64,000 nucleotides of DNA, taken from the NCBI RefSeq assembly GCF_030409715.1, contig NZ_JAUFQI010000001.1, positions 186,001 to 250,000 on the forward strand, in the 5' to 3' direction. The translations under genes and the position numbers were made by a program. Below, in pieces: positions 41,465-60,349 of the stretch. Source of the DNA: Reinekea marina (GTDB lineage: Bacteria; Pseudomonadota; Gammaproteobacteria; Pseudomonadales; Natronospirillaceae). The notes beneath the pieces were generated by a model that did not search any database, was not told the DNA's origin, and saw nothing but the letters and a program-made list of their open reading frames with translations. Position 1 is the first letter of the stretch. Each line of letters begins with the position of its first letter.

Positions 41465-42646
41465 TCACTGTTTTAATGGCTGCGTTAAGTTGTGCCGCAA
41501 AATCCAGTAATTTAACTCAGTGTTTTGATACGGCACGGCGACCAAATGCTCTCGCTGCTCCGCTCGCTTGCCTTCGACCAACAATCCAGACAAATCTTTA
41601 ATCAAAATAGCCGTTTCGGCATAATCTGAATGACCAAACATACTGTCGCTTACTTCAGAGGTATCAATCGTTTCTACACCCTTGGCGACCGTGATGTCTT
41701 TACCCGATTCACCTGCGCGTGGGTATTTGCCATGTATGGTTTTAGAGGCTTTTAAGGCGACGTCTTTTGACGATGAGTACAAAGTAATAGGCAGGTGGTG
41801 CGCTGATAATCGTGGTAATAAATCTCGTTTAAAATAATCGGCATCAATGTCTGGAGAGGCCAACACCAATTCTCCTAAACACTTTCGATAACTGGGTGAA
41901 TCGTTAAACAGGTTGATCAACGCCGAAGTGACCAGTCTTGAGCCCATCGAATGCGCAATGATATCGAGCGTTTTTACTTGAGTTTGGTCACATATACTTT
42001 TAACTGTCTTTATAAAATCAACTTTACTCCACTCAACATTGGCTTCATCTACCGTATATTGGGCGAAATTCCCCCGAGAAGGCCAGCTAAACGCAAAGGC
42101 GAGACCTGAAAACCCCATGTCATGCTTTAACTGTGCAGCAATGCGAATGGCATTTTCAAAGGTGACGTTATAACCATGTACATATAATAGCGCGTGATCG
42201 TTTTGCGATTTTTCTGTGTGGCTCACTTCATGAAAGAATTCACTGGGGTTTAACGTACTAACATCGTGTAAGAAAATATTTTTACTCGGATTACGATTAA
42301 TTCCAACAGGTCCCCAAACAAACGCTAGCTTGGCATCGGCGGTTTGATAAGTTGCTTTGGGAATACTAATTAGCGAAGCACCATAGGTGAGAGAGCCTCG
42401 ATCATCGGTGATGTTGGCCAGTTTCCCCGGCGATTGAATGAGCCGGTTGGTCGCGTAGTGCACTTCGACAAAATCGAGTTCATCTAGGCTTACTTTATCG
42501 GCAATTTGGTATCGCTCAAAGGCACTATTTGCGCCGGCATACTGCAACGTTGGCGTCATAGAACAACTGCTCAGCGAAAACACCAACAACCCCAGCCAAA
42601 GCTTTTGATGTTTAAACAAAGAAGTGATTAGAGAGTAAATACGCAT
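41465..42646 (-). CDS. DUF900 alpha/beta hydrolase, lipoprotein
   Basis: 393 aa from the ATG at 42646 (the longer frame starts at TTG). Lipobox LSSC after a signal peptide, then the DUF900 pattern: FVEVHYATNRL, LLYVHGYNVTFENAI, nucleophile elbow IIAHSMGSRLV and late GHSDYAE with the catalytic His. Membrane-anchored esterase-like enzyme of unknown substrate. Confidence 0.87.
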   Translation of the reverse strand: MRIYSLITSLFKHQKLWLGLLVFSLSSCSMTPTLQYAGANSAFERYQIADKVSLDELDFVEVHYATNRLIQSPGKLANITDDRGSLTYGASLISIPKATYQTADAKLAFVWGPVGINRNPSKNIFLHDVSTLNPSEFFHEVSHTEKSQNDHALLYVHGYNVTFENAIRIAAQLKHDMGFSGLAFAFSWPSRGNFAQYTVDEANVEWSKVDFIKTVKSICDQTQVKTLDIIAHSMGSRLVTSALINLFNDSPSYRKCLGELVLASPDIDADYFKRDLLPRLSAHHLPITLYSSSKDVALKASKTIHGKYPRAGESGKDITVAKGVETIDTSEVSDSMFGHSDYAETAILIKDLSGLLVEGKRAEQREHLVAVPYQNTELNYWILRHNLTQPLKQ

Positions 42647-42729
42647 TAAAGAAGCCTGTTGCTCGTGACGGATTTGATTGTTCAATGTTATTGTAGGGGC
42701 TCACCTTTCGACTGAGAAGCCTTCTTTTC

Positions 42730-43584
42730 GTGTCCTTGATAAAACTCATTGTAATGACCAGCTTAGCGCTTGTTGCTTTTGCGGCTAATTCCGTACTGAC
42801 TCGAATGGCATTGGCGCAAGGGCTTATCGACCCTGGGAACTTCACTTTAATTCGCTTAATCAGTGGAGCTATGACCTTGGCGATTATCTGTTTCTTTGTA
42901 AATAGAAACAGCGTGCAAGGCGTTTTTACATCGGGAACTTGGTTGGGCGCATTTTCTCTGTGGATGTATGCAGTATGCTTTTCTTATGGCTATCTCCACT
43001 TAGACACCGCAACTGGCGCTCTCATTCTATTTACGACAGTTCAGTTAACCATGTTAATAATAAGTTATGTTCGCGGCCAACGGTTTTCTATCATGGAGTG
43101 GGTAGGGCTAATTATTGCCTTTATGGGTTTTGTCGTATTGATCTTACCTAACTTAAGCTCAGGTACTACAAGCCTTGGCATTTTGCTTATGGTGGCTTCA
43201 GGTATAGCCTGGGGCAGTTATACGCTATTAGGTAAGGGAGCTGTTTCACCCACCTTATTAACGACCGGCAATTTTATAAGGGCTTCAATTATGTCATTGC
43301 CGATTATTTTCTTTAGCGCTTCCATACAATATGTAGAGTTTTCAGGCGTCTCGCTTGCCATTGCTTCGGGCGCTTTAGCCTCTGGTATTGGTTACGCACT
43401 GTGGTACACCGTGTTACCAAAATTGACCACCAGCCAAGCGGCCGTATCTCAATTATTGGTTCCAGCGCTGGCCGCATTTGGTGGCGTTTTATTTACTGGC
43501 GACCGCTTAACAACTCTCTTAATTGTGTCACTCGCCATTATTATGAGTGGAATCTTTATTGTTATAAGAGCTAAGGCGCACTAA
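42730..43584 (+). CDS. EamA/DMT family transporter
   Basis: 284 aa, ten hydrophobic segments in two EamA repeats. GTG start at 42730, with an ATG at 42754 as a plausible alternative. ANSVLTRMALAQGLIDPGNFTLIRLISGA is the typical first-repeat start. Exporter of amino acids or metabolites; substrate unknown. Ends convergently with the MFS gene, overlapping by 4 bp. Confidence 0.9.
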   Translation: MSLIKLIVMTSLALVAFAANSVLTRMALAQGLIDPGNFTLIRLISGAMTLAIICFFVNRNSVQGVFTSGTWLGAFSLWMYAVCFSYGYLHLDTATGALILFTTVQLTMLIISYVRGQRFSIMEWVGLIIAFMGFVVLILPNLSSGTTSLGILLMVASGIAWGSYTLLGKGAVSPTLLTTGNFIRASIMSLPIIFFSASIQYVEFSGVSLAIASGALASGIGYALWYTVLPKLTTSQAAVSQLLVPALAAFGGVLFTGDRLTTLLIVSLAIIMSGIFIVIRAKAH

Positions 43585-44765
43585 ACCGGTATATGCGCGC
43601 TTTGCTTAAACAGAGCTTTCATGGCAAATGCCGACACGAGCAGAATAATGGCTGCAATTAAAAATCCAAGATATGTCATTTGCGAATGGCTTAGCCAAGC
43701 AATCAACACGTAACCTAAACTTTGGCTCATCGTAGAAAATAGTTTTAAACCGCCATCGATACGGCCCCGTTCCGATACATTAAGTTCGCGGCTCATTTTT
43801 ACCGTTCTGGCGATTCGGTTAAATGAATTAAAAAAGCCAAAAGGCAGTGTAAACACTATTAACAAAAGTGGATTCAAAATAATAAACATAGCCACCAATA
43901 GCATCGAGAGTATCAACACGCTGTTAAACATCACTTTTTCAGTTTCAAAATTTTCTAACAGTTTGGCTACACCGATCCCACAAATGAGCGCTCCTAGCCC
44001 GTAAGCCACTTTCCAAGCTGCAAAGTAATCGCCTGTTAAGCCCAACTCAGAAAAATAAATTGGTATTAATTTCGATAAAAAGGTTAATACGGGGTATGAA
44101 AGGCATGACAATGCTAAAAATATAAAAAATCTAGGCTGGCGCTGAAAAATAGTTTTAGTTTCTACCAGCTGCGCAATAAATGAAGACTTTAGAACAACAC
44201 TGAGCTGCCGGCGGTAGGGCATTAGCCCGTAGCATAGTGCCGCAATTAGGGAGGCGATCATTGCAAAAGCTGAGAATTCTCGCATTGACCAAATCGACAT
44301 CAATAAAATTCCCGCCGCCCCTGAGCCGAGCGATGTAGTTTGCATGACCATTTCTAGTCGACCAGAAACCATAGGGTATTCATTGGCGTTGAAGTGTTCT
44401 TGAGTGAAGGCTGAGTTGGTACTCCATGCAAAATCACCGGTCCACCAAAAAACCAGCTGAGCGAAGATGAGCACTCCTATGTGCGCATCACCTTTCACAA
44501 AACTCATAAAAACCAAGGCAGCCGTAAGCGCCTGTATACATTGAACACCGATAAGGATATTTTTGCGCGAATGACGATCAATATAAGTAGCCAATATGGG
44601 TGTAAGCAAAAATGAACCCGCTGTACAAACAAAAGCCGTTAATGCAACCAAAGCGCCACTCGCCCCATTGGCCAGCATAAGCCAAGGCAATGCCATCATA
44701 AACATGCCTGAAGACAGGCCATCAAAAAAACGACCGCAGAGAAAGGCGCGATAAAAACTCGTCAT
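43581..44765 (-). CDS. MFS transporter, SoxR-linked efflux pump
   Basis: 394 aa with about 12 transmembrane helices. Motif A-like YIDRHSRKNILIG in the loop between helices 2 and 3, and a second-half RTVKMSRELNVSERGRIDGG. MFS_1/MFS_3-like drug or metabolite exporter. Divergent from soxR, and its promoter contains the soxbox, so induction by redox-active compounds is predicted. Confidence 0.9.
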   Translation of the reverse strand: MTSFYRAFLCGRFFDGLSSGMFMMALPWLMLANGASGALVALTAFVCTAGSFLLTPILATYIDRHSRKNILIGVQCIQALTAALVFMSFVKGDAHIGVLIFAQLVFWWTGDFAWSTNSAFTQEHFNANEYPMVSGRLEMVMQTTSLGSGAAGILLMSIWSMREFSAFAMIASLIAALCYGLMPYRRQLSVVLKSSFIAQLVETKTIFQRQPRFFIFLALSCLSYPVLTFLSKLIPIYFSELGLTGDYFAAWKVAYGLGALICGIGVAKLLENFETEKVMFNSVLILSMLLVAMFIILNPLLLIVFTLPFGFFNSFNRIARTVKMSRELNVSERGRIDGGLKLFSTMSQSLGYVLIAWLSHSQMTYLGFLIAAIILLVSAFAMKALFKQSAHIPV

Positions 44766-44801
44766 CTAGTTTCCTTATGTATTCGTTGCTGTGTATGATG
44801 C

Positions 44802-44832
44802 AGTTTAAAACCTCAAGTTAACTTTAGGTCAA
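44802..44832 (-). promoter_or_regulatory. SoxR-controlled promoter of the MFS gene (soxbox)
   Basis: CCTCAAGTTAACTTTAGG at 44811-44828 differs from the perfect soxbox palindrome CCTCAAGTTAACTTGAGG by one base. On the minus strand the -35 TTGACC (44832-44827) and -10 TAAACT (44807-44802) are separated by exactly 19 bp, the overlong spacer that MerR-family activators need. It sits between soxR and the MFS gene. Confidence 0.93.
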
Positions 44833-44849
44833 GCCTTTAAGGAGTGTTT

Positions 44850-45281
44850 ATGGAATTAAGTGTGGGCGAAGTGGCAAAGCGTAGCGGAATCTCGGTACCG
44901 ACATTACACTTTTATGAATCTAAAGGACTAATAACGAGCCGTCGAAATCAGGGGAATCAACGCCGCTATGAACGAAGTGTCCTTCGAAGAGTAGCGATTA
45001 TTAAAACTGCGCAACAGCTTGGTCTTAGCTTAAAAGATATCGCCCAGTCGATGGCCTGCTTGCCCACCAACAAAGCACCGACCAAACAAGATTGGTTAAA
45101 AATGTCTAAACAATGGCAGCATGAGCTTGATGCTCGAATATCAAGGCTTGAAAAATTACGCGATCACTTGGGAGATTGCATTGGCTGCGGCTGCCTATCG
45201 TTGCAATCATGCAAACTGCGCAATCCTGACGACATCTTGGGAAAAAAAGAAGTAGGTGCTGTTGAACTCAGTCAACAGTAG
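44850..45281 (+). CDS. soxR: Redox-sensitive transcriptional activator SoxR
   Basis: 143 aa from the ATG at 44850 with AAGGAG upstream. MerR-type HTH (LSVGEVAKRSGISVPTLHFYE), dimerisation helix, and the [2Fe-2S] cluster motif C-x2-C-x-C-x5-C in CIGCGCLSLQSC. It senses redox-active compounds and activates the divergent MFS gene through the adjacent soxbox. soxS is absent, which fits the non-enteric type where SoxR directly controls efflux genes. Confidence 0.97.
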   Translation: MELSVGEVAKRSGISVPTLHFYESKGLITSRRNQGNQRRYERSVLRRVAIIKTAQQLGLSLKDIAQSMACLPTNKAPTKQDWLKMSKQWQHELDARISRLEKLRDHLGDCIGCGCLSLQSCKLRNPDDILGKKEVGAVELSQQ

Positions 45282-45303
45282 CTAAGGCAAATGCTTTAGC
45301 TAC
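45278..45303. repeat. Hairpin between soxR and the ABC exporter genes
   Basis: GTAGCTAA / TTAGCTAC inverted repeat around an inner GC-AAAT-GC, between convergent genes. No T-run; probably a weak bidirectional terminator. Confidence 0.5.
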
Positions 45304-45322
45304 CGTTCACTAGGTTAGGCGA

Positions 45323-47161
45323 TTATATCTCACCTTCTTTCAATAGCGTTTCCTCCAGTTCGTTTTTGAACTGCTTTTGGTAAAGTTCAAAGTAATGACC
45401 CTTTTTCTCTAGCAATTCACTGTGACTGCCTTGTTCGATCAACCTGCCATCTTCTATCACGACAATCACATCCGCATTGCGAATGGTTGAAAGCCGATGA
45501 GCAATGATAAAGCTGGTGCGGCCTTTCAGCACTGTGGCTAAGCTCTTTTGCAGGCGAGCTTCTGTTTGCGTATCAACCGACGACGTGGCTTCATCCATCA
45601 CTAAAATTTGCGGATCATGAATAATGGCGCGGGCAAAACTGATTAATTGTTTTTGCCCTGTAGAAAGGTTTGTCCCCCCTTCTTGTACCTGTGTTTCATA
45701 ACCATGCTCCATACCCATGATAATATCGTGAACGTTAACAGCTTTTGCGGCCGCTTCTATTTCAGCGTCTGTCGCATCTAACTTACCGTATCGTATGTTT
45801 GATCGAATGGTGCCGGTAAAAAGAAACGGTGTTTGCAATACAATGCCTAGATTCGATTGCAGCCATAAAAGACTACGATCTCGGTAATCAACACCGTTAA
45901 CCAATACTTGCCCTTGGTTTGGCTCATAGAAACGACACAGTAAACTGACGACAGTTGATTTACCGCTTCCAGTTGGACCAACGAGTGCCACGGTAGAACC
46001 GGCTGGAACTTTCAAATTGAAGTCTGAGAGTACGGGCTCGTCTGGTTTATATGAAAACTGAATATCTTTAAATTCTATATCTCGAATATCATTTTCTAAA
46101 CCATCAAGAGTTTGGTGATCCGATTCATAGGCTCGCTTCATTAGTTCAACAACTGCGTCAGAATCTTTAATCGTTGGCTCAACGACTAATAACCCCATAA
46201 CTCGCTCAACACAGGCGGTTGTTCGCTGTAAGTTGGCCAAGGTTTCACTGACCTCCAACATTGGATCCATCAGTGTACGTGCATAATTCATAAACGCGAC
46301 TAAGGTACCTAGCGTTAATACACCAGCAAGTACATCAACACCGCCTAGCCAAAGAGCAATACCCACGGCCAAGCTGACAAAGACGTTTACAAAAGGAAAA
46401 AATGCCGACGTCAGTAACAGATTATGCATAGATAGCCCGTACATCTTATCGGTATCGACTTTAAATTCTTTTAAATTTTGCTGTTCACGTACCAAGATTT
46501 TACTGGTTTGTATGCCTGCAATCCCTTCGTTATATACAGCGGTTAGCCTTGAGTTAGTTTTACGTAACTCACGCGAACTGTTCAGTATTTTTTGATTAAA
46601 CACCCAAGCCACGCCGGCCAACAATGGGAATAAGGCCAATACAATTAAGGCCATTCTTGCGTCTAAAACAAAAAGCACAATAAAGATCGCCAGAATCATG
46701 GGTATTCCCCAAAACAAATCCAGTGTCCCCCAGGCAACTATTCTGGCAATACGGGCTGTATCAGAAGTTATTCGAGAAACCAACCAGCCTACGGCGTTGT
46801 TGTCATAAAATGAAAACGATAGAGATTGTAGGTGTTCGAAACTCTCTTTTCTTAGCTCGTACATGAGCGTCATCGACAACTTACCGGTAAGCCGAATAAA
46901 GCTTCTAATGCATATCACGAGCACGGCTAATGCAGTAAAGAATACCAGCCCATAACCTAACAGCTGAGCATCCGCTCCTTTATCAGCAATTTCGTCGAAG
47001 ACTTCTTTTGTAATCAACGTAAAGCTGGCTTCAACACCAGCCGTCGTTAGTGCAAGTGCGATCACTCGGTGAAATAGTTTTTTTTGTGGCTGGTAGCATC
47101 GGTTAAAAACCGCTTTCCAGGCGCCTTTTTCAAAAGGCGTACTATTTTGTGTAGCGTCCAT
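45323..47161 (-). CDS. Heterodimeric ABC exporter subunit B (MdlB-like)
   Basis: 612 aa. An N-terminal six-helix exporter domain (about 25-320), then a nucleotide-binding domain: Walker A GPTGSGKSTVVSLL, signature LSTGQKQLISFARA, Walker B ILVMDEATSSVD with the catalytic Glu intact. Pairs with the degenerate-site partner directly upstream (23-bp gap). Multidrug or lipid exporter family (MdlAB/SmdAB/BmrCD). Confidence 0.93.
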   Translation of the reverse strand: MDATQNSTPFEKGAWKAVFNRCYQPQKKLFHRVIALALTTAGVEASFTLITKEVFDEIADKGADAQLLGYGLVFFTALAVLVICIRSFIRLTGKLSMTLMYELRKESFEHLQSLSFSFYDNNAVGWLVSRITSDTARIARIVAWGTLDLFWGIPMILAIFIVLFVLDARMALIVLALFPLLAGVAWVFNQKILNSSRELRKTNSRLTAVYNEGIAGIQTSKILVREQQNLKEFKVDTDKMYGLSMHNLLLTSAFFPFVNVFVSLAVGIALWLGGVDVLAGVLTLGTLVAFMNYARTLMDPMLEVSETLANLQRTTACVERVMGLLVVEPTIKDSDAVVELMKRAYESDHQTLDGLENDIRDIEFKDIQFSYKPDEPVLSDFNLKVPAGSTVALVGPTGSGKSTVVSLLCRFYEPNQGQVLVNGVDYRDRSLLWLQSNLGIVLQTPFLFTGTIRSNIRYGKLDATDAEIEAAAKAVNVHDIIMGMEHGYETQVQEGGTNLSTGQKQLISFARAIIHDPQILVMDEATSSVDTQTEARLQKSLATVLKGRTSFIIAHRLSTIRNADVIVVIEDGRLIEQGSHSELLEKKGHYFELYQKQFKNELEETLLKEGEI

Positions 47162-47184
47162 CTTAATTCCTTCTCCGTAACAGC

Positions 47185-49017
47185 TTAAACCGTTACTTTA
47201 ATTTCCGATTCAAATTGGTCTTTTTGGTCGCTTTGAATTTCCCATAGCTCATTGTAAAAACCATCTCGATGAGTCAATTCGTTATGCGTTCCTTGATCAG
47301 TAATCCGACCGTCTTGCATCACAATTATTCGGTCTGCCTTTTGGCACACACTGATTCGATGCGTAATTATGAGCAGCGTTTGCTCACCCTTTTTCTCATG
47401 CAAGGCCGAGATAATCTTTTGCTCAGTCGAGGCATCTACAGCACTGAGCGTGTCATCTAGCACCAAAATGGGTGGCGTATTTAATAAAGTACGAGACAAA
47501 GTTACCCGTTGCTTTTGGCCACCACTTAAACTCACACCCCGTTCACCAATGACGGTGCTATAACCACCTTGGAAACTTTCAATAGTGTGATGAACAGCCG
47601 CCGCTGTTGTCGAATGAACCATTGCGCCATCGCTGGCCTCTAAGTGACTGAACTTAATGTTTTCACGTAAGCTTCGACTGAATAAAAACGGCTCTTGAAG
47701 TAGTGTGCCTATTTGGTGACGAATATCCTTTCGAGCAATTGAACTCAGTTCAATACCATCTACTGAAATAGACCCTTGTTCATAATCATGTAAACGCATC
47801 AGCAATTGGATCAGGGTACTCTTACCAGCACCGGTAGGACCTACAATGGCTATGGTTTCTCCAGGGGCAACATCAAAACTTACGTCGGTGAGCACTGGGC
47901 GATCTTTATCGTACTGAAAGTGTATATTCTCAAATTTTATCGCCCCCATGATTCGGTCTGGTAAAGGCGTAACATTCTGGAGTTCTTCTTCCTCTGGCGC
48001 TTCTAATATTTCTTGAATTCGGCCAATCGCTACGGTGGCTTTGCCAGCTTCACTGAGTTCTTTGCCTAACTGTCGAATCGGCCAAATTAACAAATTGGTG
48101 TATCCAATGAATGCAAAGTAGGTACCGAACGAAATATGACCTTGCGCGGTTAACCAGCCTCCGCCGATGAGAACAATGCCGCTCTGCGCAATACACAATA
48201 AATCTGAGAGCGACCAGAAGTTGGCAAACATACAAATAAGTTTGTAGTTTAAATCACTGTATCGCGCATTTTTTTCATCAAATTTTTCACACTCATAGTC
48301 TTGGCGAGCAAAAGCGCGTACCACTCGAATACCGGTAAGGTTTTCTTGGACTATGGTAGTCAGTTCGCCTTCGGCTTCGTCTACTTTCTGAAACAATTCT
48401 CGAACTTTTACAAAGAACACCATGCCGTAGTATAAAACTACAGGTACCAATATGAGTGAAAGAACCGTAAGCCACGCATTTTGCATAAACATCAGTGGAA
48501 TAACGACGGCCATTAAAATAATGGTTCGGCCTATATTCATCACTTGCATGGTTAAAAACTCTCGCAATGTATCAATATCGGATGTGCAACGCTGAAGAAT
48601 GTCACCACTGTCGGCATTATTTAAATAGCGCTCATCGATGTGATGTAAATGATGGTAGAGTTTATTCCTCAGTTCTCGAACCGTCGTTTCGCAAGCACCT
48701 GCGGCGAGGTAGTCTTTGAGGTACATAAAAAGACCGCTCAATGCTGTAACGATGACAATGGCCAAACCGGCTAACCAAAGTTGGTTGGCTAGGGCATCTG
48801 GCCCACCGACCCAACTAATTACGGCATCAATCTTGTCACCATTGTGAACACGCGGCTCGGTAATGACTCGATCTATCACTAACTTACCAATGGTTGGTAC
48901 TAGAAACATAAAGTAACTGGCAATACCCACGCTAATAATTGCGCCGAGGTAGGGCCATTTTTTTTGATGAATTAAATCTATTAATATTTGATTACGCTGT
49001 GAAGCTTTCTTGTTCAC
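47185..49017 (-). CDS. Heterodimeric ABC exporter subunit A (MdlA-like, degenerate site)
   Basis: 610 aa from a GTG at 49017 with AAGGAAG just upstream. Six transmembrane helices, then Walker A GPTGAGKSTLIQLL, signature LSGGQKQRVTLSR, and Walker B LVLDDTLSAVD in which Asp replaces the catalytic Glu, the usual asymmetry of heterodimeric exporters. First structural gene of the exporter operon. The mRNA leader upstream carries a small ORF and attenuator-like hairpins. Confidence 0.93.
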   Translation of the reverse strand: MNKKASQRNQILIDLIHQKKWPYLGAIISVGIASYFMFLVPTIGKLVIDRVITEPRVHNGDKIDAVISWVGGPDALANQLWLAGLAIVIVTALSGLFMYLKDYLAAGACETTVRELRNKLYHHLHHIDERYLNNADSGDILQRCTSDIDTLREFLTMQVMNIGRTIILMAVVIPLMFMQNAWLTVLSLILVPVVLYYGMVFFVKVRELFQKVDEAEGELTTIVQENLTGIRVVRAFARQDYECEKFDEKNARYSDLNYKLICMFANFWSLSDLLCIAQSGIVLIGGGWLTAQGHISFGTYFAFIGYTNLLIWPIRQLGKELSEAGKATVAIGRIQEILEAPEEEELQNVTPLPDRIMGAIKFENIHFQYDKDRPVLTDVSFDVAPGETIAIVGPTGAGKSTLIQLLMRLHDYEQGSISVDGIELSSIARKDIRHQIGTLLQEPFLFSRSLRENIKFSHLEASDGAMVHSTTAAAVHHTIESFQGGYSTVIGERGVSLSGGQKQRVTLSRTLLNTPPILVLDDTLSAVDASTEQKIISALHEKKGEQTLLIITHRISVCQKADRIIVMQDGRITDQGTHNELTHRDGFYNELWEIQSDQKDQFESEIKVTV

Positions 49018-49070
49018 GTTATCTTCCTTAATGCTTTGTTTTCTAAGACTTTTTCACAACACCAACACGC

Positions 49071-49099
49071 AAAAAAGCCCGCAATTTAGCGAGCTTTTT
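49071..49099 (-). terminator. Attenuator-type intrinsic terminator upstream of the ABC exporter
   Basis: On minus-strand RNA, AAAAAGCUCGC (49099-49089) pairs with GCGGGCUUUUU (49082-49072) through 11 bp with one U-G wobble and a 6-nt loop; six U follow. It lies 54 bp before the exporter start codon, so it would terminate the operon's own leader. Confidence 0.85.
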
Positions 49100-49102
49100 A
49101 AA

Positions 49103-49184
49103 AATACGATTAATAGTTTTTGGTCGTATTCGAAAGCCCGCGAATTTATCAGACGGGCAATCGACAAACGATTAGCTACCCGTC
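49103..49184 (-). promoter_or_regulatory. Leader hairpins including a candidate antiterminator
   Basis: In RNA order: GACGGG / CCCGUC with inner AAUCG / CGAUU (49184-49152) starts at the stop codon of the leader ORF. Then GCGGGCUUU (49141-49133) can pair with the AAAGCUCGC arm of the terminator and so prevent it. Then AAUACGA / UCGUAUU (49130-49103). The overlap of pairing partners is what attenuators show. Confidence 0.65.
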
Positions 49185-49242
49185 AGAAGGTATTTCCAAG
49201 CGCTGCAAAGGCGCCGTATGGTACTGTGATTAACATAGTCAT
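49183..49242 (-). CDS. Candidate 19-aa leader peptide of the ABC exporter operon
   Basis: ATG at 49242 with AGGAA about 10 nt upstream. Predicted peptide MTMLITVPYGAFAALGNTF, stop TGA at 49183. It is followed immediately by the hairpins and terminator described here and then by the exporter genes. The arrangement is like BmrB upstream of the Bacillus BmrCD heterodimeric exporter, although the peptides are unrelated. Translation is not proven. Confidence 0.6.
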   Translation of the reverse strand: MTMLITVPYGAFAALGNTF

Positions 49243-49301
49243 ATTTGGTTATTCCTATTTAAAACTAATCATTAAAATATGCCGTAAGACGGGTGAGTGT
49301 T

Positions 49302-49316
49302 TTGCACAATGTGCAA
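49302..49316. promoter_or_regulatory. Perfect palindrome TTGCACAATGTGCAA
   Basis: A 15-bp dyad with a single central base, about 60 bp upstream of the leader ORF. It is placed where an operator for the exporter operon would sit; the regulator is unknown. Confidence 0.5.
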
Positions 49317-49403
49317 CTGAGTGTCGACAAAGTTAGAACAAGCCATTCAAAAAGGCAAGCGCTTTTTGGAAAACTTTTTAAATCAGTGTTGCATTTTAAA
49401 TTT

Positions 49404-49443
49404 GAAAGGCGCAGTATCACGCCAAATTTCTATCGCCTTTTTC
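49404..49443 (+). terminator. Possible intrinsic terminator
   Basis: GAAAGGCG (49404-49411) / CGCCTTTTTC (49434-49443) with a 22-nt loop. It also works in mirror image on the minus strand. Confidence 0.4.
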
Positions 49444-49473
49444 ACGGCGTTTTCTCAATTCGGAGGGTTAAAT

Positions 49474-49515
49474 ATGATTGTATTAAACAAAACGCACTTA
49501 GGATCTGGCGCGTAA
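49474..49515 (+). CDS. Candidate 13-aa small ORF upstream of rsgA
   Basis: ATG at 49474 behind a strong SD (GGAGGG, 49462-49467). Predicted peptide MIVLNKTHLGSGA, stop TAA. A terminator-like hairpin follows before rsgA. It could be a leader peptide or chance; there is no homology evidence. Confidence 0.4.
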   Translation: MIVLNKTHLGSGA

Positions 49516-49570
49516 TTTAACACTCTTTTTAAAAATTACCTTCAGCTTCTCGGTGCTTAACTTTTGCATC

Positions 49571-49596
49571 GGGCCATCTATTGATGACCCTTTTTA
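49571..49596 (+). terminator. Terminator-like hairpin in the rsgA leader
   Basis: GGGCCATC / GATGACCC 8-bp stem with one mismatch, TATT loop, then TTTTT. Lies about 25 bp before the rsgA start. Confidence 0.55.
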
Positions 49597-49621
49597 ATTT
49601 TATTAATTTGGGGTTATACCA

Positions 49622-50683
49622 TTGAACAATCCAAATAAAATGTCACTGACCGATCTCGGTTGGCGACCTATTTTACAACAACAATTAACGTTAGAAGATT
49701 TAGAACAAGGCTATGTTGCTCGCGTTGTTAGTGCTCAACGGGATGTTATCGGCGTTTTATCTGAACAAGGCGAGTCATTATTGCCTCTCAGATTATTTGA
49801 TCAAAAAGATGATCCAGAGTTTCGACCCACGGTAGGGGATTGGGTTTGGGTAGATTTTGAACACAGTCGTGCACGTGTATTCGAGCGTTTAAGTTATTTA
49901 AAACGCACGGCGGCTGGCAGCAACCCAAAACCTCAATCGATAGCCGCAAATGTTGATACGTTGTTTTTAGTTAGCTCGTGCAATAAAGACTTTAACGTCA
50001 GTAAGTTAGAACGCTATTTGGCTCTGGCATTAGAGGCAAAAATTCCGACAGTGATTGTTCTCACAAAAGCCGATCTGACAAACAGTGTTGAAGACTATGA
50101 AGCCCAAGCAAAAAGCATACATGTAAACACACCCGTGGTGGTAGTGGATGCTTTATCTGAAGAAGCGATTGACCACCTTAAACCTTGGCTGGTCAAAGGT
50201 GATGCCATTGCCTTTGTTGGGTCCTCTGGTGTGGGAAAATCTACGCTTACGAATGCAGTTCTGGGTAGAGAGGCACAGGCGACCCAAGGCATTCGGGTAG
50301 ATGATGCCAAAGGACGGCACACTACAACGGATCGATCAATGCACCTTTCTCCGACGGGGACTTGGGTAATAGACACACCCGGTATGAGAGAGCTTAGAAT
50401 TACGGATGTGAGCGATGGCATTGCTGAAGTATTCGATGATATTGAAGCTTTGAAGTTGCGATGTAAGTTTCGTAATTGTCAACATGAAGGTGATGAAGGA
50501 TGTGCCATTCAAGAGGCCATTGAGGCTGGCGAACTGACAATGCGCCGCTGGTCGAACTACCTCAAACTACAAAGAGAAGCAGACTTCGCAGCCAGTAATA
50601 AATGGCAACAACGTGAGAAGCACCGGCAATTTGGTAAGATGATAAACAACCATCTTAAGCAAAAGAAAACGCTAAAGTACTAG
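49622..50683 (+). CDS. rsgA: Small ribosomal subunit biogenesis GTPase RsgA
   Basis: 353 aa from a TTG at 49622 (GGGG about 8 nt upstream; the ATG at 49640 has no SD). Circularly permuted GTPase: OB fold first, then VVLTKADL (G4), GSSGVGKSTL (G1), DTPGMREL (G3), and a zinc-knuckle end with CKFRNCQHEGDEGCAI. Removes assembly factors from the 30S subunit. Confidence 0.96.
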   Translation: MNNPNKMSLTDLGWRPILQQQLTLEDLEQGYVARVVSAQRDVIGVLSEQGESLLPLRLFDQKDDPEFRPTVGDWVWVDFEHSRARVFERLSYLKRTAAGSNPKPQSIAANVDTLFLVSSCNKDFNVSKLERYLALALEAKIPTVIVLTKADLTNSVEDYEAQAKSIHVNTPVVVVDALSEEAIDHLKPWLVKGDAIAFVGSSGVGKSTLTNAVLGREAQATQGIRVDDAKGRHTTTDRSMHLSPTGTWVIDTPGMRELRITDVSDGIAEVFDDIEALKLRCKFRNCQHEGDEGCAIQEAIEAGELTMRRWSNYLKLQREADFAASNKWQQREKHRQFGKMINNHLKQKKTLKY

Positions 50684-50686
50684 CAT

Positions 50687-50712
50687 TAAAAAAGGGGCTA
50701 GCGCCCCTTTAA
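50687..50712. terminator. Bidirectional terminator between rsgA and the oxygenase gene
   Basis: AAAAAAAGGGGC-TAGC-GCCCCTTT, with A/T runs on both sides of a GC stem, between convergent genes. Confidence 0.88.
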
Positions 50713-50717
50713 CTGCC

Positions 50718-51653
50718 TTACTTTACCAGGCCGATTTCTCGTAAGCGTTCCATTAGGTAGTCATGAGCCGTCGTGGGTTCAAACTGTTTCGGATTTTCTT
50801 CGGTGACGCATTGAGGCAAGCAATCTAAAGACATATCTGGATTGGCGTGCATGAAAAACGGAATCGAGTAACGTGACGTTTTTCCAGCTTCGCCTTTTGG
50901 ATTCACCACTCGATGCGTTGTTGAAGGCAGCACTTTATTGGTTAAACGTTGCAGCATGTCACCAACGTTACAAATAATCGTACCTTCGATCATTGAGATG
51001 CCAACCCATTCGCCTTTTTTACTGAGCACTTCTAAACCTTCTTGCTCGGAACCGACCAGTAACGTAATAAGGTTAATGTCTTCATGTGCACCAGCACGAA
51101 CATTCGGTAAGCTCGGATCGGTAATAGGCGGGTAGTGTAATGGGCGTAAAATTGAGTTACCCCAGTTTGCCTTGTCTTCAAAGAAATCCGCTTTTTCACC
51201 TATAAATAACGCAAATGCTCTTAACATTGTATTGGCCAGCTTATCGAGCTCGGTAAACAGCTCTAACATGACCGGCTTAAACTCAGGAACTTCTTCAGGC
51301 CATACATTCGGCGTCAACTGCGGGTACGGTGGTGTTCCGCTAATTTCACGGCCTACGTGCCAAAACTCTTTTAAATCTACATGGTCTGCGTTTTTAGCAA
51401 TTTCAGTTCCGAAAGGCGTATAACCGCGAGTACCACCGTTGTCTTTAAAGTACTGTTTTTTAGTGTCTTCTGGCAACGAAAAAACCGCTTCCATAACAGC
51501 CATGGCACGTCGAATGAGGTCTGTAGAAATACCATGGTTTTGAATGCCCGCAAAGCCCCATTCTTGGTAGGCTGCGCCTAGTTGGGCAACGAACGCATCT
51601 TGGTCTTTCGCAAAACTAGAGATATCAAGTGTTGGTACGGTGGGTTGAGTCAT
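50718..51653 (-). CDS. 2-oxoglutarate/Fe(II) oxygenase, isopenicillin N synthase family
   Basis: 311 aa. Iron ligands H-x-D in AHEDINLITLL and the distal His in TTHRVV, then the 2OG-binding R-x-S in SRYSIPFF. N-terminal DIOX_N segment (WGFAGIQNHGI). Substrate unknown; its position behind the BMP-type nucleoside transporter suggests a role in purine or pyrimidine salvage (inference). A terminator lies between it and the permease gene upstream. Confidence 0.92.
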   Translation of the reverse strand: MTQPTVPTLDISSFAKDQDAFVAQLGAAYQEWGFAGIQNHGISTDLIRRAMAVMEAVFSLPEDTKKQYFKDNGGTRGYTPFGTEIAKNADHVDLKEFWHVGREISGTPPYPQLTPNVWPEEVPEFKPVMLELFTELDKLANTMLRAFALFIGEKADFFEDKANWGNSILRPLHYPPITDPSLPNVRAGAHEDINLITLLVGSEQEGLEVLSKKGEWVGISMIEGTIICNVGDMLQRLTNKVLPSTTHRVVNPKGEAGKTSRYSIPFFMHANPDMSLDCLPQCVTEENPKQFEPTTAHDYLMERLREIGLVK

Positions 51654-51670
51654 TGTTATTTCGCCTTATT

Positions 51671-51707
51671 AAAAAAAACCTGCCAAGAGCTTGGCTCAAG
51701 ACAGGTT
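51671..51707 (-). terminator. Intrinsic terminator of the BMP-type ABC operon
   Basis: On the minus strand AACCTG ... CAGGTT encloses the palindrome CCAAGAGCTTGG and is followed by eight T. Confidence 0.88.
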
Positions 51708-51751
51708 GTCTCAGTGAAGCCCCAATCTAACGCTGGGTGAATTCAGTTATA

Positions 51752-52735
51752 TTAGGTACGCTCTTTCACGTACGGTTTACCAATAGCTTTTGGTGCCACA
51801 GCTCGGCCAATAAAGCCACCTAATAGGATGACCGTTAAGATGTATGGCAATGCTTCAATCAGCTGCACTGGGATGGTAAATGTACCAATAGCGGCTCCTT
51901 GAGTTCTGTCTGCAATAGCTTGCAAGATACCAAACATTAAGCAGGCTAACAGTGCGCCACGAGGATGCCATTTACCAAAAATTAGCGCCGCTAAGGCCAT
52001 ATAACCTTTACCCGCACTCATGTTCGGTAAGAACTGAGCCGTTACCGCAACCGATAAATAAACACCGGCCAAACCAGCCAGAATACCACAAATTAACAAG
52101 GCAGAATAACGCATGGTGGTAACAGAAATACCCGCGGTATCTACAGCCGATGGGTTTTCACCTACGGCTCGAAGGCGCAAGCCAAAGCGTGTTTTAAATA
52201 ATATAAACCAGGTAATCGGAACCATGATAAGTGCCACATAGACCAGCAAAAAGTGCCCGCTGATCAGCTCGGAATAAATACCCCCAATGATAGGAACATC
52301 GGCTAACGCATCGGCAAACGGAAAATTAAGTGGTTCGAAGCGAGCATTAATGCCATTCGCAGAATCTACTAGGTTTGGCGTGTTACCACCTTGCTTAAAC
52401 CAGTAATTACCCAGTGCAGCCGTTAAACCGGCCGCTAAAATGTTAATGGCCATACCAGAAACGACTTGGTCACCGTTGTGAGTAACCGTTGCAAATGCGT
52501 GCATCATTGCAAATACAACCGAAACCATTACACCGGCCAAAAGGCCCATCCAAGGTGAGTTGGTTACATAGGCCGCAGCAGCACCGGCAAAGGCCGATGC
52601 CAAAATTTTGCCTTCCAAAGCAATGTTTACGATACCAGATCGTTCTGAAAACATACCGGCCAAAGCCGCAAAGATTAGAGGCGTTGCTACACGCAATGTT
52701 GCATCTAAAATAAGGATTAAATTAGTGAACGCTTA
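51752..52735 (-). pseudogene. Nucleoside-type ABC permease (second subunit), 5' end removed by an IS
   Basis: The body is intact: LRVATPLIFAALAGMFSERSGIVNIALEG, eight or more membrane helices, and GKGYMALAALIFGKWHP. Coding extends upstream of the TTG at 52696 (codons for FTNLILILDAT), but a TAA and the IS end stop it near 52735. The missing start, ATG GAT AAT GGT AT, survives at 54141-54128 on the other side of the element, two bases after the stop of the first permease gene. Expression now needs an internal start (TTG 52696) or an IS-borne signal, so transport may be lost. Confidence 0.85.
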
Positions 52736-52749
52736 TATGGACCCACCCC

Positions 52750-53023
52750 GTTTGCAAGACATATTTGATCATCATGTGAGAGAAAATCATTGCTCTCATA
52801 TATCCGGCCTTTGACTGAAGGTGTTTTTGACCTCCTGGCCCCGATGGTTATCTGCGCTCAACCCCCTCATCATCCATACGGCCTCGAAGGCCAATGCGCG
52901 TGTAAGGGTTCGGATGAGCCGGTCTGACCTATCTCACCATCCGATCAATCTGTCTTTTGCAACTGAAGTGAAAGGTAATTACTTTCTCTTATTATATTGC
53001 CAGCCTTTGGCTGGCGTTTGCTT
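52750..53023 (-). ncRNA. Candidate bridge (guide) RNA region of the IS1111-type element
   Basis: The long 3' non-coding end is where IS1111-group elements encode their bridge RNA. Stem-loops visible: GCCAGCC-TTT-GGCTGGC (52999-53015), GGCCT-CGA-AGGCC (52880-52892) and TGAGAG / CTCTCA (52777-52798). The RNA segment ATGGATGATG (complement of about 52867-52877) matches the disrupted target ATGGATAATG at 9 of 10 positions, which may be a target-guide loop or chance. Confidence 0.45.
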
Positions 53024-54040
53024 CTATACCGCTAAGCGGTAACTCTCTTCTCGGGCCATAACTACCCAAGCAATACGTGCTAGTTTATTAGCTACAGCGA
53101 CACAGGCTTTATTATGCCCGCGGCGCGCCAACAGTGCTTGTGCCCAACAACTGAAGCGATCGATCTTGCCGGCCGAATGCATGAGTACTGCGCGAGCACC
53201 GTGTATCAATAGAGTGCGTAAGTAGCCGTTACCCCGTTTACTGATCCCAAGTAAACCTGCCTTGCCGCCACTGGCGTGTTGCCCAGGTACGAGGCCAATC
53301 CACGCAGAAAAATGACGACCATTCACAAAGTTTTTGCCATCGCCTGCAGCCGCATACAATGCACTGGCGGTTATTGCGCCGATGCCCAACACGCCTTCTA
53401 GGCGTTTACAGGTCTCGTTCTCTTTGTTCACTGCTTTTATCCTTTGCTCGCAGATGTGCAGTCGTTGATCCAGTTCGTACAGCTCGTCGAGCAAGTCGGC
53501 AAAGAGCTCTCGTGCCATAACCGTTAAACCATTTTCTGCATCTTCTAATACTTCCGGCAATGTTCGGCGTACAGAGGCAATCCCTTGGTTAATCACAATC
53601 CCATACTCCGCCAGTAACCCTCGTACCTGATTGACCAATCCGGTACGGGCCTTTTTAAGACGTTCACGGCGGCAGTGATAATTCTGTACATCTTGTTGCT
53701 CAATACTCTTGATAGGCACAAAGCGCATCGTTGGCCGCTGCGCGGCTTCAGCGATTGCCTCAGCATCGTTGTAGTCGTTTTTATTACCTTTTAAAAACGG
53801 CTTGACGTACTGCGGCGCGATAAGTTTGACCTGATGACCTTGCGCAATAAACGCCCACGCCCAGTAGTTGGCGCCGCCGCAGGCTTCCATCACAATTAAA
53901 CACGGATCTAAGTTTGCCATGTAAGCCAAAACCTCTTTTCGACGCAGCTGCTTTTTCTTAACCAGCTTGCCCATCCGGTTGGTAGCAAACAGATGAAAAA
54001 CAGACTTTGCAATATCTAACCCAATCGTTGTAATCTTCAT
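53024..54040 (-). CDS. IS110 family transposase (DEDD recombinase)
   Basis: 338 aa from the ATG at 54040 (the longer frame starts at TTG). RuvC-like DEDD residues: GLDIAKSVF, VMEACGGANYW, NKNDYNDAEAIAEA. Coiled-coil middle, then the Transposase_20 domain (LEGVLGIGAITASAL) with the catalytic Ser region LLGISKRGNGYLRTLLIHGA. The reading frame is intact, so the element may still be active. Confidence 0.95.
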   Translation of the reverse strand: MKITTIGLDIAKSVFHLFATNRMGKLVKKKQLRRKEVLAYMANLDPCLIVMEACGGANYWAWAFIAQGHQVKLIAPQYVKPFLKGNKNDYNDAEAIAEAAQRPTMRFVPIKSIEQQDVQNYHCRRERLKKARTGLVNQVRGLLAEYGIVINQGIASVRRTLPEVLEDAENGLTVMARELFADLLDELYELDQRLHICEQRIKAVNKENETCKRLEGVLGIGAITASALYAAAGDGKNFVNGRHFSAWIGLVPGQHASGGKAGLLGISKRGNGYLRTLLIHGARAVLMHSAGKIDRFSCWAQALLARRGHNKACVAVANKLARIAWVVMAREESYRLAV

Positions 54041-54127
54041 ATCGACCCACTCCGCTTCTGTTAAATGGTTTGTGTTCAACTTCCATTTTGGCCCATTATG
54101 AGGCCGATAGGGAAGTGGGGTGGGTCC

Positions 54128-54141
54128 ATACCATTATCCAT
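54128..54141 (-). pseudogene. Severed start of the interrupted permease gene
   Basis: ATG GAT AAT GGT AT directly after GGAGG and the first-permease stop codon: the original start (M-D-N-G) of the gene continued at 52735. Confidence 0.75.
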
Positions 54142-54143
54142 GA

Positions 54144-55265
54144 TTAAGCCTCCTTCGCATCTGGTTTAGTTAACAGCGCAGACAATTTTAAATACGCTTT
54201 TTCAACAGGGTGCTTTGTCATGTTTTCTAAGGCACTAGAGAACAAGATAACTAAGCCTTGTAAGACGACGATTATGCGAGGGTCAACGCCGTATTCAAAC
54301 TGCAACTCACCGCCACCTTGATACAAGAAACCAAATAACAAGCTTGCTAAGATAATACCCACTGGGTGGTTTCGGCCAATTAATGCTACCGCAATACCTG
54401 TAAATCCAAAGCCATTGACAAGGTTCAGTTTAATTTGGTGGGCTTCACCTTGAACCACGTTAAGCGCGAAGAAACCGGCTAACATGCCAGAAACCAGCAT
54501 GGTCATAATAATAGTTTTATCAAGCGGGATACCGGCGTATTTAGCCGCACTTGGGTTTTGCCCAGTGGCTCTAATTTCATAGCCCCAACGGGTACGCCAC
54601 ATAAAGAAGTACACACCCACACAGCATATTAATGCCCAAACTATTGATAGGTTTAAAGGTGAGCGCTGCAGGTTTATGCCTAAAGGCGAAAGCACTTCAG
54701 ATATTTTTGGAATCCAAGCCGATTGAGCAAAGACCGCACTTTCAACTGACATCGAGCCTTCAACTTTGAAGACTTCTACTAATAGATAACCCATCAAAGA
54801 TGCTGCAATGAAGTTGAACATAATGGTCGTAATTACAATGTGAGAGCCACGCTTAGCTTGTAAAAAGGCTGGAATATAAGCCCATGCTGCACCAAAAATG
54901 CCCGCCGCCATAATGCTAAGCGGTAACAGAATGATGAAAGGCAGTACGTCACCTAAGGCTAAACAGACAATGCCTACGCCCAATGCACCCACATAGGCCT
55001 GGCCTTCGCCGCCAATGTTGAATAAGCCCGCCTGAAAGGCAACCGCCACCGCTAGGCCAGTAAAAATAAAGCTCGTTGTGTAATAAAGGGTATAACCCCA
55101 GCCGTAAGAATCACCAAAGGCACCATAGGCCATCGTGTTTACAGCTTCAATTGGGTTAATGTCTAAGTACCAAAACATAATACCGGCTGCGAGCGCCGCT
55201 AACATGATGTTAACGATGGGGATAATGACTACATAGATCCACGCGGGAATTCGTTGCGCACTCAT
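54144..55265 (-). CDS. Nucleoside-type ABC transporter permease (first subunit)
   Basis: 373 aa, about eight to ten membrane helices, BPD_transp_2 family. GLAVAVAFQAGLFNIGGEGQAYVGALG and NPVGIILASLLFGFLYQGG are typical of the NupP/YufP type. The start overlaps the ATPase gene stop by 4 bp. Partner of the split permease 51752-52735. Confidence 0.94.
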   Translation of the reverse strand: MSAQRIPAWIYVVIIPIVNIMLAALAAGIMFWYLDINPIEAVNTMAYGAFGDSYGWGYTLYYTTSFIFTGLAVAVAFQAGLFNIGGEGQAYVGALGVGIVCLALGDVLPFIILLPLSIMAAGIFGAAWAYIPAFLQAKRGSHIVITTIMFNFIAASLMGYLLVEVFKVEGSMSVESAVFAQSAWIPKISEVLSPLGINLQRSPLNLSIVWALICCVGVYFFMWRTRWGYEIRATGQNPSAAKYAGIPLDKTIIMTMLVSGMLAGFFALNVVQGEAHQIKLNLVNGFGFTGIAVALIGRNHPVGIILASLLFGFLYQGGGELQFEYGVDPRIIVVLQGLVILFSSALENMTKHPVEKAYLKLSALLTKPDAKEA

Positions 55266-56821
55266 ACGTTGGTCTCCTGCTGCAGTGCTTTAACTTCATC
55301 AGGCACAATATTGGCCATCATTAATCCTAAGATTTGTTCATTTGCCTTATCGGCCGGTACTTCACCGACGATTTGTCCATCGAACATCACCAAAATTCGA
55401 TCCGCTAAGCTCATGATTTCCTCAAGCTCAACGGAAATGAGCAACACGGCTTTGCCGGCATCTCGCATATCGATAACGCGTTGGTGAATGGTTTCAATTG
55501 CACCGATATCAACACCACGAGTAGGCTGACCAACCAAAAGTACATCGGGGTCTTGTTCCATTTCTCGTGCAATGACTAGTTTTTGCTGGTTACCACCAGA
55601 GAAATTTGCGGCTTTGAGATTTGGGTCTTGAGGACGCACATCCCATTTTTCCATTTTGGCTTTGCAGTCTTCGGTAATGGCTTCGACTTTCGTGAGTAAT
55701 TTACCGTTGTAGTCTTGATGGCGATGGAAACCAAGAATATAGGCTTGTTCCGCAGGGAAAGAGTTAATCAAACCCATCTTATGTCGGTCTTCAGGAATGT
55801 GACCCACTTTTATGTCGCGTATTTCAGAGGGTGTTAACGGGTTTTCTTTAGTGATGGTATGCCCGTTAATGTCGATAGAACCATTTTGCAAAGGCTCAAT
55901 CCCAGCGATAACATCTAAAAGCTCAGACTGACCATTACCACTGACACCGGCAACACCAACAATTTCACCAGCACGCACGTTGAAGCTCACATTATCAAGG
56001 CGAACAACGCCGGCATCGTTTTTCAATGAGACGTTTTTAACGTCTAGCAATACGTCTTTTGGTTCTGCAGGTTGCTTATCAACACGCAACAGAACTTTAC
56101 GGCCGACCATTAATTCAGCTAAGTCTTCACGGCTGGTTTCGGCGGTTTTAACATGAGCCACCATTTCACCACGACGCATAATGCTAACGTTATCTGTGGC
56201 GGCCATAATTTCTTGTAACTTATGGGTGATCAACATAACGGTATTGCCTTGCTCTTTCAGCGAGGCTAATACTTTAAATAGATGCTCTGTTTCTTGTGGC
56301 GTAAGTACGCCCGTCGGCTCATCTAAAATTAAGATTTTAGCGCCTCGGTACAGAGCTTTTAAAATTTCGACGCGCTGCTGCATACCCACAGACAGCTCTT
56401 GAACCGGTGTATCTAAAGGCACATCTAAGCCATATTCATCGGCTAGGCGTTTTAACTCTGCACGAGCTTTATCAAGACTTTTATCGATTAACTCGCCGCT
56501 CTCAGCGCCTAATACAACGTTTTCTAGGGCGGTAAAGTTTTGAATCAACATAAAGTGTTGGTGAACCATGCCGATGCCTGAAGCAATGGCCACTTTTGAA
56601 TCGCTGATTCGGGTAACTTCGCCATCGATAAGAATATCGCCTTCATCGGCTTCATAGAAGCCATAGATAATACTCATTAAGGTCGATTTGCCGGCACCAT
56701 TTTCTCCGACAATGCCGTGAATGGTTCCTTTTTCGACTTTCAGATCGATATATTTGTTTGCGTGAACGGCACCGAAACGCTTGTCGATACCACGCAACTC
56801 TATTGCGAGTTGAGTTGTCAT
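55262..56821 (-). CDS. Nucleoside-type ABC transporter ATP-binding protein (two NBDs)
   Basis: 519 aa. First NBD: Walker A GENGAGKSTLMSI, signature LSVGMQQRVEIL, Walker B ILILDEPTGVL. Second NBD has a weak Walker A (GVSGNGQSELL) and the sugar/nucleoside-type signature FSGGNQQKLVIARE. YufO/NupO/RbsA architecture. Energises the two permeases. Confidence 0.95.
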   Translation of the reverse strand: MTTQLAIELRGIDKRFGAVHANKYIDLKVEKGTIHGIVGENGAGKSTLMSIIYGFYEADEGDILIDGEVTRISDSKVAIASGIGMVHQHFMLIQNFTALENVVLGAESGELIDKSLDKARAELKRLADEYGLDVPLDTPVQELSVGMQQRVEILKALYRGAKILILDEPTGVLTPQETEHLFKVLASLKEQGNTVMLITHKLQEIMAATDNVSIMRRGEMVAHVKTAETSREDLAELMVGRKVLLRVDKQPAEPKDVLLDVKNVSLKNDAGVVRLDNVSFNVRAGEIVGVAGVSGNGQSELLDVIAGIEPLQNGSIDINGHTITKENPLTPSEIRDIKVGHIPEDRHKMGLINSFPAEQAYILGFHRHQDYNGKLLTKVEAITEDCKAKMEKWDVRPQDPNLKAANFSGGNQQKLVIAREMEQDPDVLLVGQPTRGVDIGAIETIHQRVIDMRDAGKAVLLISVELEEIMSLADRILVMFDGQIVGEVPADKANEQILGLMMANIVPDEVKALQQETNV

Positions 56822-56929: not shown

Positions 56930-56943
56930 AATTTTAATCGATC

Positions 56944-60334: not shown

Positions 60335-60349
60335 AAGGTGAGGCTCCAT

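Follow-up and report, generated by a model that had tools for sequence, protein, structure and literature searches.

Ahead of a two-subunit ABC exporter, Reinekea marina carries what is very probably a ribosome-mediated transcription attenuator, a leader RNA that gauges translation and turns the exporter on when translation is slow. It lies on the minus strand of the 64,000-nt stretch of DNA analysed here (the window). Through this RNA switch the cell can probably make the pump when antibiotics, for example, slow its ribosomes. In the proposed mechanism, RNA polymerase would start near 49323 and a 19-codon ORF would be translated behind it, while five short segments of the RNA would compete for partners. 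A ribosome reaching the stop codon before segments 3 to 5 had been made would cover segment 1, so that segment 2 would pair with 3 and segment 4 with 5, and transcription would terminate. A ribosome stalled within the initial two thirds of the ORF, by a drug or by a shortage of charged tRNA, would leave 1:2 and 3:4 to form and polymerase to read through. We infer this polarity (complete translation OFF, early stalling ON) from the pairings; the leader ORF is presumably translated, with translation inhibitors as the presumed signal. The segments, their order, their predicted exclusive pairings, the ORF and the position of its stop codon are borne out by the sequence and by its comparison among relatives.

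Layout of the leader

The original prediction had placed ahead of the exporter a leader ORF with a Shine-Dalgarno sequence, a hairpin at its stop codon, the antiterminator arm GCGGGCUUU and a terminator, followed by the exporter GTG at 49017. Reading the minus-strand sequence 49700-48700 directly, we found all of these in place, and the observation is confirmed. The elements, in the order of transcription, are as follows.

49353-49358, minus strand: candidate -35 hexamer TTGCCT, with a 17-nt spacer to the -10
49330-49335, minus strand: candidate -10 hexamer TAACTT
49288-49294, minus strand: 5' UTR segment 0, ACCCGUC, whose complements are segment 1 and, in part, segment 3
49253-49256, minus strand: AGGA, Shine-Dalgarno-like sequence of the leader ORF, read from the sequence
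49183-49242, minus strand: leader ORF of 19 codons, MTMLITVPYGAFAALGNTF; ATG at 49242, stop UGA at 49185-49183
49196-49221, minus strand: hairpin within the leader ORF, possibly a polymerase pause hairpin, with weak folding support
49179-49184, minus strand: segment 1, GACGGG, starting inside the stop codon of the leader ORF
49152-49158, minus strand: segment 2, GCCCGUC; partner segment 1 or segment 3
49157-49152, minus strand: right arm of hairpin 1:2, CCCGUC, pairing with GACGGG at 49184-49179
49133-49141, minus strand: segment 3, the antiterminator arm, GCGGGCUUU; partner segment 2 or segment 4
49102-49131, minus strand: inner hairpin GAAUACGA/UCGUAUUU, which would draw segments 3 and 4 together
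49099-49089, minus strand: left arm of the terminator, AAAAAGCUCGC, from sequence and folding
49089-49097, minus strand: segment 4, AAAGCUCGC, within the left arm of the terminator; partner segment 3 or segment 5
49071-49082, minus strand: segment 5 and U-run of the terminator, GCGGGCUUUUUU, from sequence and folding
47185-49017, minus strand: ABC exporter subunit A, 610 aa, GTG start at 49017; Walker B LDDTLSAVD, signature LSGGQ
45323-47161, minus strand: ABC exporter subunit B, 612 aa; Walker B MDEATSSVD, signature LSTGQ

Segment 4 can pair with 3 or with 5, so the antiterminator 3:4 and the terminator 4:5 are mutually exclusive; this was claimed originally and holds, segment 4 being common to both structures and the pairs being kept across leaders. 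The other pairs first listed were likewise found, but that list lacked the pairing of arm 2 with arm 3. With it the five-arm relay is complete, and the hairpin at the stop codon thereby becomes part of the switch and the polarity is given. The terminator begins at 49099, downstream of the end of the leader ORF at 49183, and thus lies outside the coding region. The region upstream is divergent, with an ORF on the plus strand at 49622-50683 and the next gene-size minus-strand ORF beyond it; given this position between divergent genes, the terminator probably does not belong to the end of some other gene.

Hairpin 1:2 (49190-49151) had an MFE of -15.5 kcal/mol (z -3.7; 2 of 200 shuffles equal or better) and the terminator (49110-49071) one of -15.2 kcal/mol (z -5.3; 0 of 200). 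The 115-nt stretch 49185-49071 beat 200 of 200 shuffles (z -4.6). For the longer stretch 49256-49000 the folding excess was weaker (z -2.1, with 8 of 200 shuffles as good), and 49256-49130 alone gave no excess over shuffles (z -0.4). A simple terminator scan of 48500-49900 returned 0 terminator-like sites against 1.5 expected in shuffles; we think that it missed the terminator because the U-run pairs with the A5 ahead of the stem and was counted as stem.

Conservation of the competing segments

Orthologues of subunit A with 61-67% identity were found in five further genomes among 57, and one also in a genome of the same species. Four more records, at 57-74% identity, belong to Alginatibacterium, a Cellvibrionaceae MAG, a MAG filed under SAR324 and a Hahella MAG; these came from 80 of 185 confirmed loci, among which two more rows appear to be second records of genomes already counted. 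A record of R. forsetii strain G2M07 (L010) is 99% identical at the exporter. The ten distinct leaders referred to below are that of the window and those of nine relatives (exporter 57-74% identical), and the eleven include R. forsetii, which nearly duplicates the window and was therefore excluded from A2, A5 and R1.

When the upstream sequences were read, the order of ORF, stop codon at arm 1, and then arms 2, 3, 4 and 5 was found in all ten distinct leaders. The segments were picked by hand in each, and the poorest fits were those of L013, L014 and L015 (the last with just CGGG/CCCG for 1:2). We built a covariance model, R1, from the ten leaders and used it to realign them (A5). Pair counts were taken from A5, since A2 and A3 misplace some segments; A5 itself favours 1:2 and 4:5, not 2:3 and 3:4. 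Among the ON pairs (1:2 and 3:4), 92.5% of 147 cells were paired, compared with 26-51% when partners were slid by 1-3 columns, and among the OFF pairs (2:3 and 4:5) the figure was 98.6% of 146 cells, compared with 30-66%. Double-sided changes were seen at three ON pairs, a number equalled by two of six slid versions, and at two OFF pairs (0-1 when slid); the covariation scores were reached by 6 of 500 and 5 of 500 shuffles for ON and OFF pairs, respectively. An A-U pair replaces G-C in 2:3 of the Hahella MAG and in 3:4 of Alginatibacterium. Pairing is strongly kept and covariation is weak, as is expected if every segment must suit two partners.

One natural variant occurs in the R. forsetii record, where CGGTGTGC stands in place of CGGGTAGC after the stop codon. 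It weakens hairpin 1:2 from -14.3 to -11.5 kcal/mol, and this leader should read through less if the model holds.

An ATG ORF of 18-22 codons, preceded by a Shine-Dalgarno sequence, is present at this place in all ten distinct leaders. Its stop codon overlaps segment 1 in seven, touches it in two and lies 2 nt away in one; the stop is UGA followed by C in seven leaders and UAA in three. As a control, the stop was held fixed, the ORF plus 110 nt upstream was shuffled, and ATG ORFs of 15-25 codons with a Shine-Dalgarno sequence were counted. Such an ORF arose in 9-33 of 3000 shuffles per leader (about 0.3-1.1%), against 11 of 11 real leaders. The conservation of both the ORF and the competing stems in all ten distinct leaders supports the reading as ribosome-mediated attenuation with which the original prediction had begun.

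An ordinary terminator next to a chance ORF, with no regulation at all, could be imagined, as short GC-rich stems followed by U-runs are common: R1 gave well over 100 rows of weak matches (25-45 bits) in 22 genomes of the family. All 13 of the weak matches that were read end in a terminator-like stretch, as ordinary terminators do, and in five a small ORF ends near the start of the match (a Shine-Dalgarno sequence was not required here), but none has the arrangement of the leader. Against chance also stand the ORF, its stop position and the four exclusive pairings, kept in ten of ten leaders, the low frequency of such an ORF in shuffles, and the location of the terminator in a divergent intergenic region. 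We regard this explanation as scarcely credible.

Folding of the smaller hairpins and a possible promoter were also compared across the leaders. The inner hairpin of the window (-5.0 kcal/mol) was matched by 1.6% of 500 shuffles. In every one of the 11 leaders but G007 this hairpin folds more stably than the average shuffle, although the sequence varies among most of them, and five of the 11 (the window, R. forsetii, G001, Alginatibacterium and the Hahella MAG) fall at or below 2% of shuffles. Folding within the ORF was likewise more stable than the shuffle average in 10 of the 11, yet only two of the 11 reached a level of 0.05 or less (window, 0.23). A TTGC-type -35 with a TA-type -10 stands 84-130 nt ahead of the ATG in all 11 leaders, a pattern that was sought after being spotted by eye and without a shuffle control. 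In the window, transcription from the candidate promoter would be expected to start near 49323. This promoter agrees with the consensus at only 7 of 12 positions and is absent from the list of a promoter scanner, which found 4 promoter-like sites in 48500-49900 against 4.1 expected, no excess. The candidate would answer the worry that transcription might start downstream of 49071, but its match to the consensus is weak.

Divergence of the leader peptides

Across the ten leader peptides the longest run of a single residue is two, short of the codon run that marks an amino-acid leader. Only the initial Met is invariant in the peptide alignment, and one Ala is common to eight of the ten peptides in one gapped alignment. 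This divergence argues for a sensor of translation speed and against one tuned to a single amino acid or arrest peptide, and it is the position of the ribosome, rather than the peptide, that seems to be the conserved thing.

Searching the 64-kb window with Rfam release 15 gave 0 matches at the gathering score, amino-acid-leader models included. The best sub-threshold matches in 49000-49400 were to Trp_leader on the same strand (22.1 bits against a cut-off of 41) and to chrB-b on the opposite strand (22.5 against 36.5). In amino-acid operon leaders (trp, leu and others), a ribosome translating a short ORF reads a relay of alternative hairpins that leads to a terminator. A classical attenuator of that kind, in which a stall for one charged tRNA would control an exporter of that amino acid or of a product, shares its segment logic with the leader described here, and Trp_leader is the best sub-threshold match on this strand. 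The Reinekea leader nevertheless differs from those leaders in having no regulatory codon run and in scoring below the Rfam cut-offs; no residue run longer than two and no invariant residue beyond the initial Met is found in the ten peptides, and the genes downstream are ABC exporter subunits that resemble multidrug exporters. We therefore consider amino-acid attenuation very unlikely. An RNA switch that binds a ligand or a protein independently of translation would account for two exclusive folds without a ribosome, but it would leave unexplained a Shine-Dalgarno-preceded ORF ending at segment 1 in all ten leaders, and no Rfam family reached the gathering score in the window; such a switch has little to recommend it over translation gauging and we give it hardly any credence.

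Ribosome position and predicted folding

Pairing probabilities were computed with the footprint of a ribosome blocked out at various codons of the ORF, for transcripts ending after segment 4 or earlier. When the stop codon occupied the A site, the mask covered segment 1 and 1:2 was lost in 11 of 11 leaders, a consequence of where the stop lies. In the same position, 2:3 had a probability of at least 0.62 in 10 of 11 leaders when transcripts ended midway between segments 3 and 4, before segment 4 was out. With the ribosome at codon index 9, 1:2 was at least 0.67 in 10 of 11. Moving the ribosome from codon 9 to the stop lowered P(3:4) by at least 0.3 in 7 of 11 leaders in a first run. A second run, which added 12 nt of 5' UTR and used codon 8 and slightly different settings, gave such a drop in only 4 of 11. 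For the suggestion that a ribosome on the ORF would expose or hide the antiterminator, folding gives a mixed picture: a footprint at the stop removes 1:2 in every leader, and a clear fall in 3:4 is seen in just seven or four of the eleven.

The leader of the window is a poor switch in silico, its P(3:4) falling from 0.97 to 0.75 in the first run and from 0.96 to 0.76 in the second. Once its segment 3 is out, 2:3 is preferred whatever the position of the ribosome. With segment 3 out, the best fold switches with ribosome position in 6 of 11 leaders and is 2:3 throughout in the other 5, the window included; in the G007 leader 3:4 hardly forms. In the window, 1:2 has a probability of 0.64-0.76 once segment 2 has been transcribed and the stop codon is unoccupied; as 1:2 forms first, switching there would depend on the sequence in which the pairs fold. 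Equilibrium folding supports the relay in some of the relatives and lends it little support in the leader of the window, so that conservation is the main support for it.

Further complementary segments

Two more segments may extend the relay. By eye, segment 0 reads CCCG in eight of the ten distinct leaders and GCCC in one, and there is none in the SAR324 MAG. Compared with shuffles, its duplex with segment 1 reached p <=0.05 in 3 of 10 leaders (window 0.003; combined p 5e-5) and its duplex with segment 3 in 4 of 10 (combined p 1e-4), so that this duplex test does not tell the two partners apart. Segment 6, a GCCCGC-like sequence between the terminator and the exporter start, is complementary to segment 5; it is present in 9 of 10 distinct leaders and absent from the window (p <=0.05 in 6 of 10; combined p 3e-8). 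The combined p values for both segments treat the leaders as independent. In an extended relay, 1:2, 3:4 and 5:6 would form when ON and 0:1, 2:3 and 4:5 when OFF. It is a tentative idea, with perhaps a modest chance of being right, that six or seven segments make up a gauge by which an efflux pump responds to translation speed whatever the peptide, and in which one ribosome position would set three serial pairings.

Segment 0 also bears on a BmrB-like scheme. There the RNA without a ribosome would fold into the terminator, with segment 0 paired to 1 or 3; only a ribosome stalled within the ORF would give read-through, and the codons might set drug-specific stalls. Complementarity of segment 0 to both segments beyond that of shuffles speaks for such a scheme, and in the window, without a ribosome and with segment 3 out and segment 4 not, 0:1 reaches 0.68-0.99. 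In the available account of bmrB, moreover, blocking its translation lowers expression and abolishes induction (PMC4191407). Once segment 4 is out, however, 0:1 in the window falls to 0.06 and P(3:4) is 0.96 without a ribosome, and in L004, L008 and L015 0:1 is at most 0.05 at every stage without a ribosome. The leader peptides are also little conserved, and in PA5471.1 an amber codon raises expression, according to the portion of that report available (PMC13041342). On balance we find the BmrB-like scheme unlikely, and return to attenuation in which completed translation gives termination.

The exporter and the distribution of its leader

Heterodimeric ABC exporters with one degenerate ATP site have Asp for the catalytic Glu in one half and an altered signature in the other. 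Subunit A has Asp at the catalytic Walker B position, LDDTLSAVD being invariant in six aligned A subunits, and subunit B has the altered signature LSTGQ. By these marks the two adjacent half-transporters would form a heterodimeric exporter with one degenerate site. Both resemble exporters, including multidrug exporters, and among the 25 best of 187 and 185 matches none is above a curated cut-off; for SmdAB, A scored 315.6 against 845 (NF008055) and B 300.7 against 746 (NF008056). In each of the 12 loci examined a match to subunit B adjoins subunit A, truncated by the locus end in five of them; the 12 include two loci from repeat records of a genome that is in the count already.

A SoxR regulator gene adjoins the exporter on the plus strand (44844-45281; 217 bits, cut-off 117), and an MFS transporter gene lies nearby on the minus strand (43581-44765), with a weak likeness to the macrolide efflux protein MefA that is far below the cut-off. 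The genome also has a 24.6-kb contig, C2, that repeats 35760-52734 plus 54137-61753 at 99.97-99.99% and lacks 52735-54136; it is an assembly duplicate or reflects a mixed population, and because it duplicates the region there is a second copy of the leader in the genome.

Among 22 genomes of the family, the exporter was found in seven and strong R1 matches (at least 66 bits) in the same seven. Exporter and leader were both found in these same seven among 390 genomes of the order, and only in the window's own genome among 369 of the class. Finding R1 matches in the seven exporter genomes is so by construction, because six of their leaders built R1 and the seventh genome is of the same species. 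In none of the three sets was there a strong leader match without the exporter or before another gene, at R1 thresholds of E 1e-7 for the order and E 1e-6 for the class and with stricter filters under which weak matches can be lost; exporter absences in the order and class are less certain because only three candidates were scored per genome. Phage records gave no leader match, and plasmids only one relative of the exporter, at 38%.

Outside the mainly gammaproteobacterial group (at least 57% identity, plus the SAR324 MAG), the nearest relatives listed are mostly from Firmicutes, at 37-46%. Together with the patchiness of the gene (seven of 390 genomes of the order), this suggests horizontal transfer. 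The distribution further suggests that the leaders travel with their exporter and that the pair is rare and patchy.

The 80 of 185 confirmed loci include 73 outside the leader group (37-46% identity, mostly Clostridia); R1 gave nothing better than E 0.2 on nine of them. Small upstream ORFs preceded by Shine-Dalgarno sequences were noticed in several of these distant relatives, mostly Clostridia (L017, L028, L036, L040, L059, L070, L084 and L085), with peptides starting MRFR, MIRLR, MIRIR, MLSIRIR or MIIKVR. These contain [RK]-x-[RK], a macrolide arrest motif. The motif occurs in the first 12 residues of an ORF at most 460 nt upstream in 13 of 72 relatives, compared with 59 of 1440 control windows taken from any part of those loci, and a small ORF precedes a terminator-like site in 19 of the 72, a count made without a control (L080 was left out of both counts, having too little upstream sequence). 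Drug-specific leaders are possibly present on the same exporter clade.

Relation to known leaders

By analogy, the nearest functional counterparts would be PA5471.1-armZ and BmrB-bmrCD. The original prediction had recognised no gammaproteobacterial counterpart; PA5471.1-armZ of Pseudomonas aeruginosa is one, as the available portions of two papers describe it (PMC12057347, PMC13041342). It too belongs to a gammaproteobacterium and has a short leader ORF, a similar polarity and a role in controlling a multidrug exporter. Its full translation is held to give the terminator, and an amber codon at position 3 raises ArmZ (PMC13041342, in the part available). The deletion construct in that part removes positions 1 to 226, and its result therefore says less; a review, as excerpted, terms the mechanism proposed and in need of confirmation (PMC12057347). 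As described in these excerpts, PA5471.1 governs the anti-repressor gene armZ in MexXY regulation, whereas the Reinekea leader precedes the pump itself. The PA5471.1 terminator is described there as segments 3 and 4, whereas the Reinekea leader keeps five segments and has its stop codon at the first of them.

The likeness to BmrB that was first pointed out stands in general terms. In Bacillus subtilis a leader ORF and a terminator lie directly before the multidrug ABC exporter pair bmrCD, which is induced by ribosome-targeting drugs, according to the available part of the source (PMC4191407). It does not extend to the layout, since on that description the BmrB ORF has 53 codons, its terminator lies inside the coding region and blocked translation lowers expression (PMC4191407), whereas the Reinekea ORF ends before the switch. 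The leader toiL of topAI-yjhQP in Escherichia coli is another gammaproteobacterial leader ORF and senses several classes of ribosome-targeting drugs, but it hides a ribosome-binding site and acts through Rho-dependent termination, and the available passages of its report describe no intrinsic terminator switch (PMC12121999). In P. aeruginosa, the accessible part of a 3'-end study suggests a leader ORF for obgE under azithromycin (PMC8297930). The portion available of a survey of premature terminators has 205 attenuated ABC transporter candidates and does not name this leader (PMC2965389). Among the titles and abstract openings of the literature matches listed, no description of the leader was found.

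The leader is a well-preserved new example of the known ribosome-mediated attenuators of drug exporters. Across the ten leaders, natural variation sets the kept features (the segments and the stop position) apart from the variable one, most of the peptide. If the reading is true, marine Gammaproteobacteria would have, on a pump operon, a sensor of translation inhibition that is directly testable.
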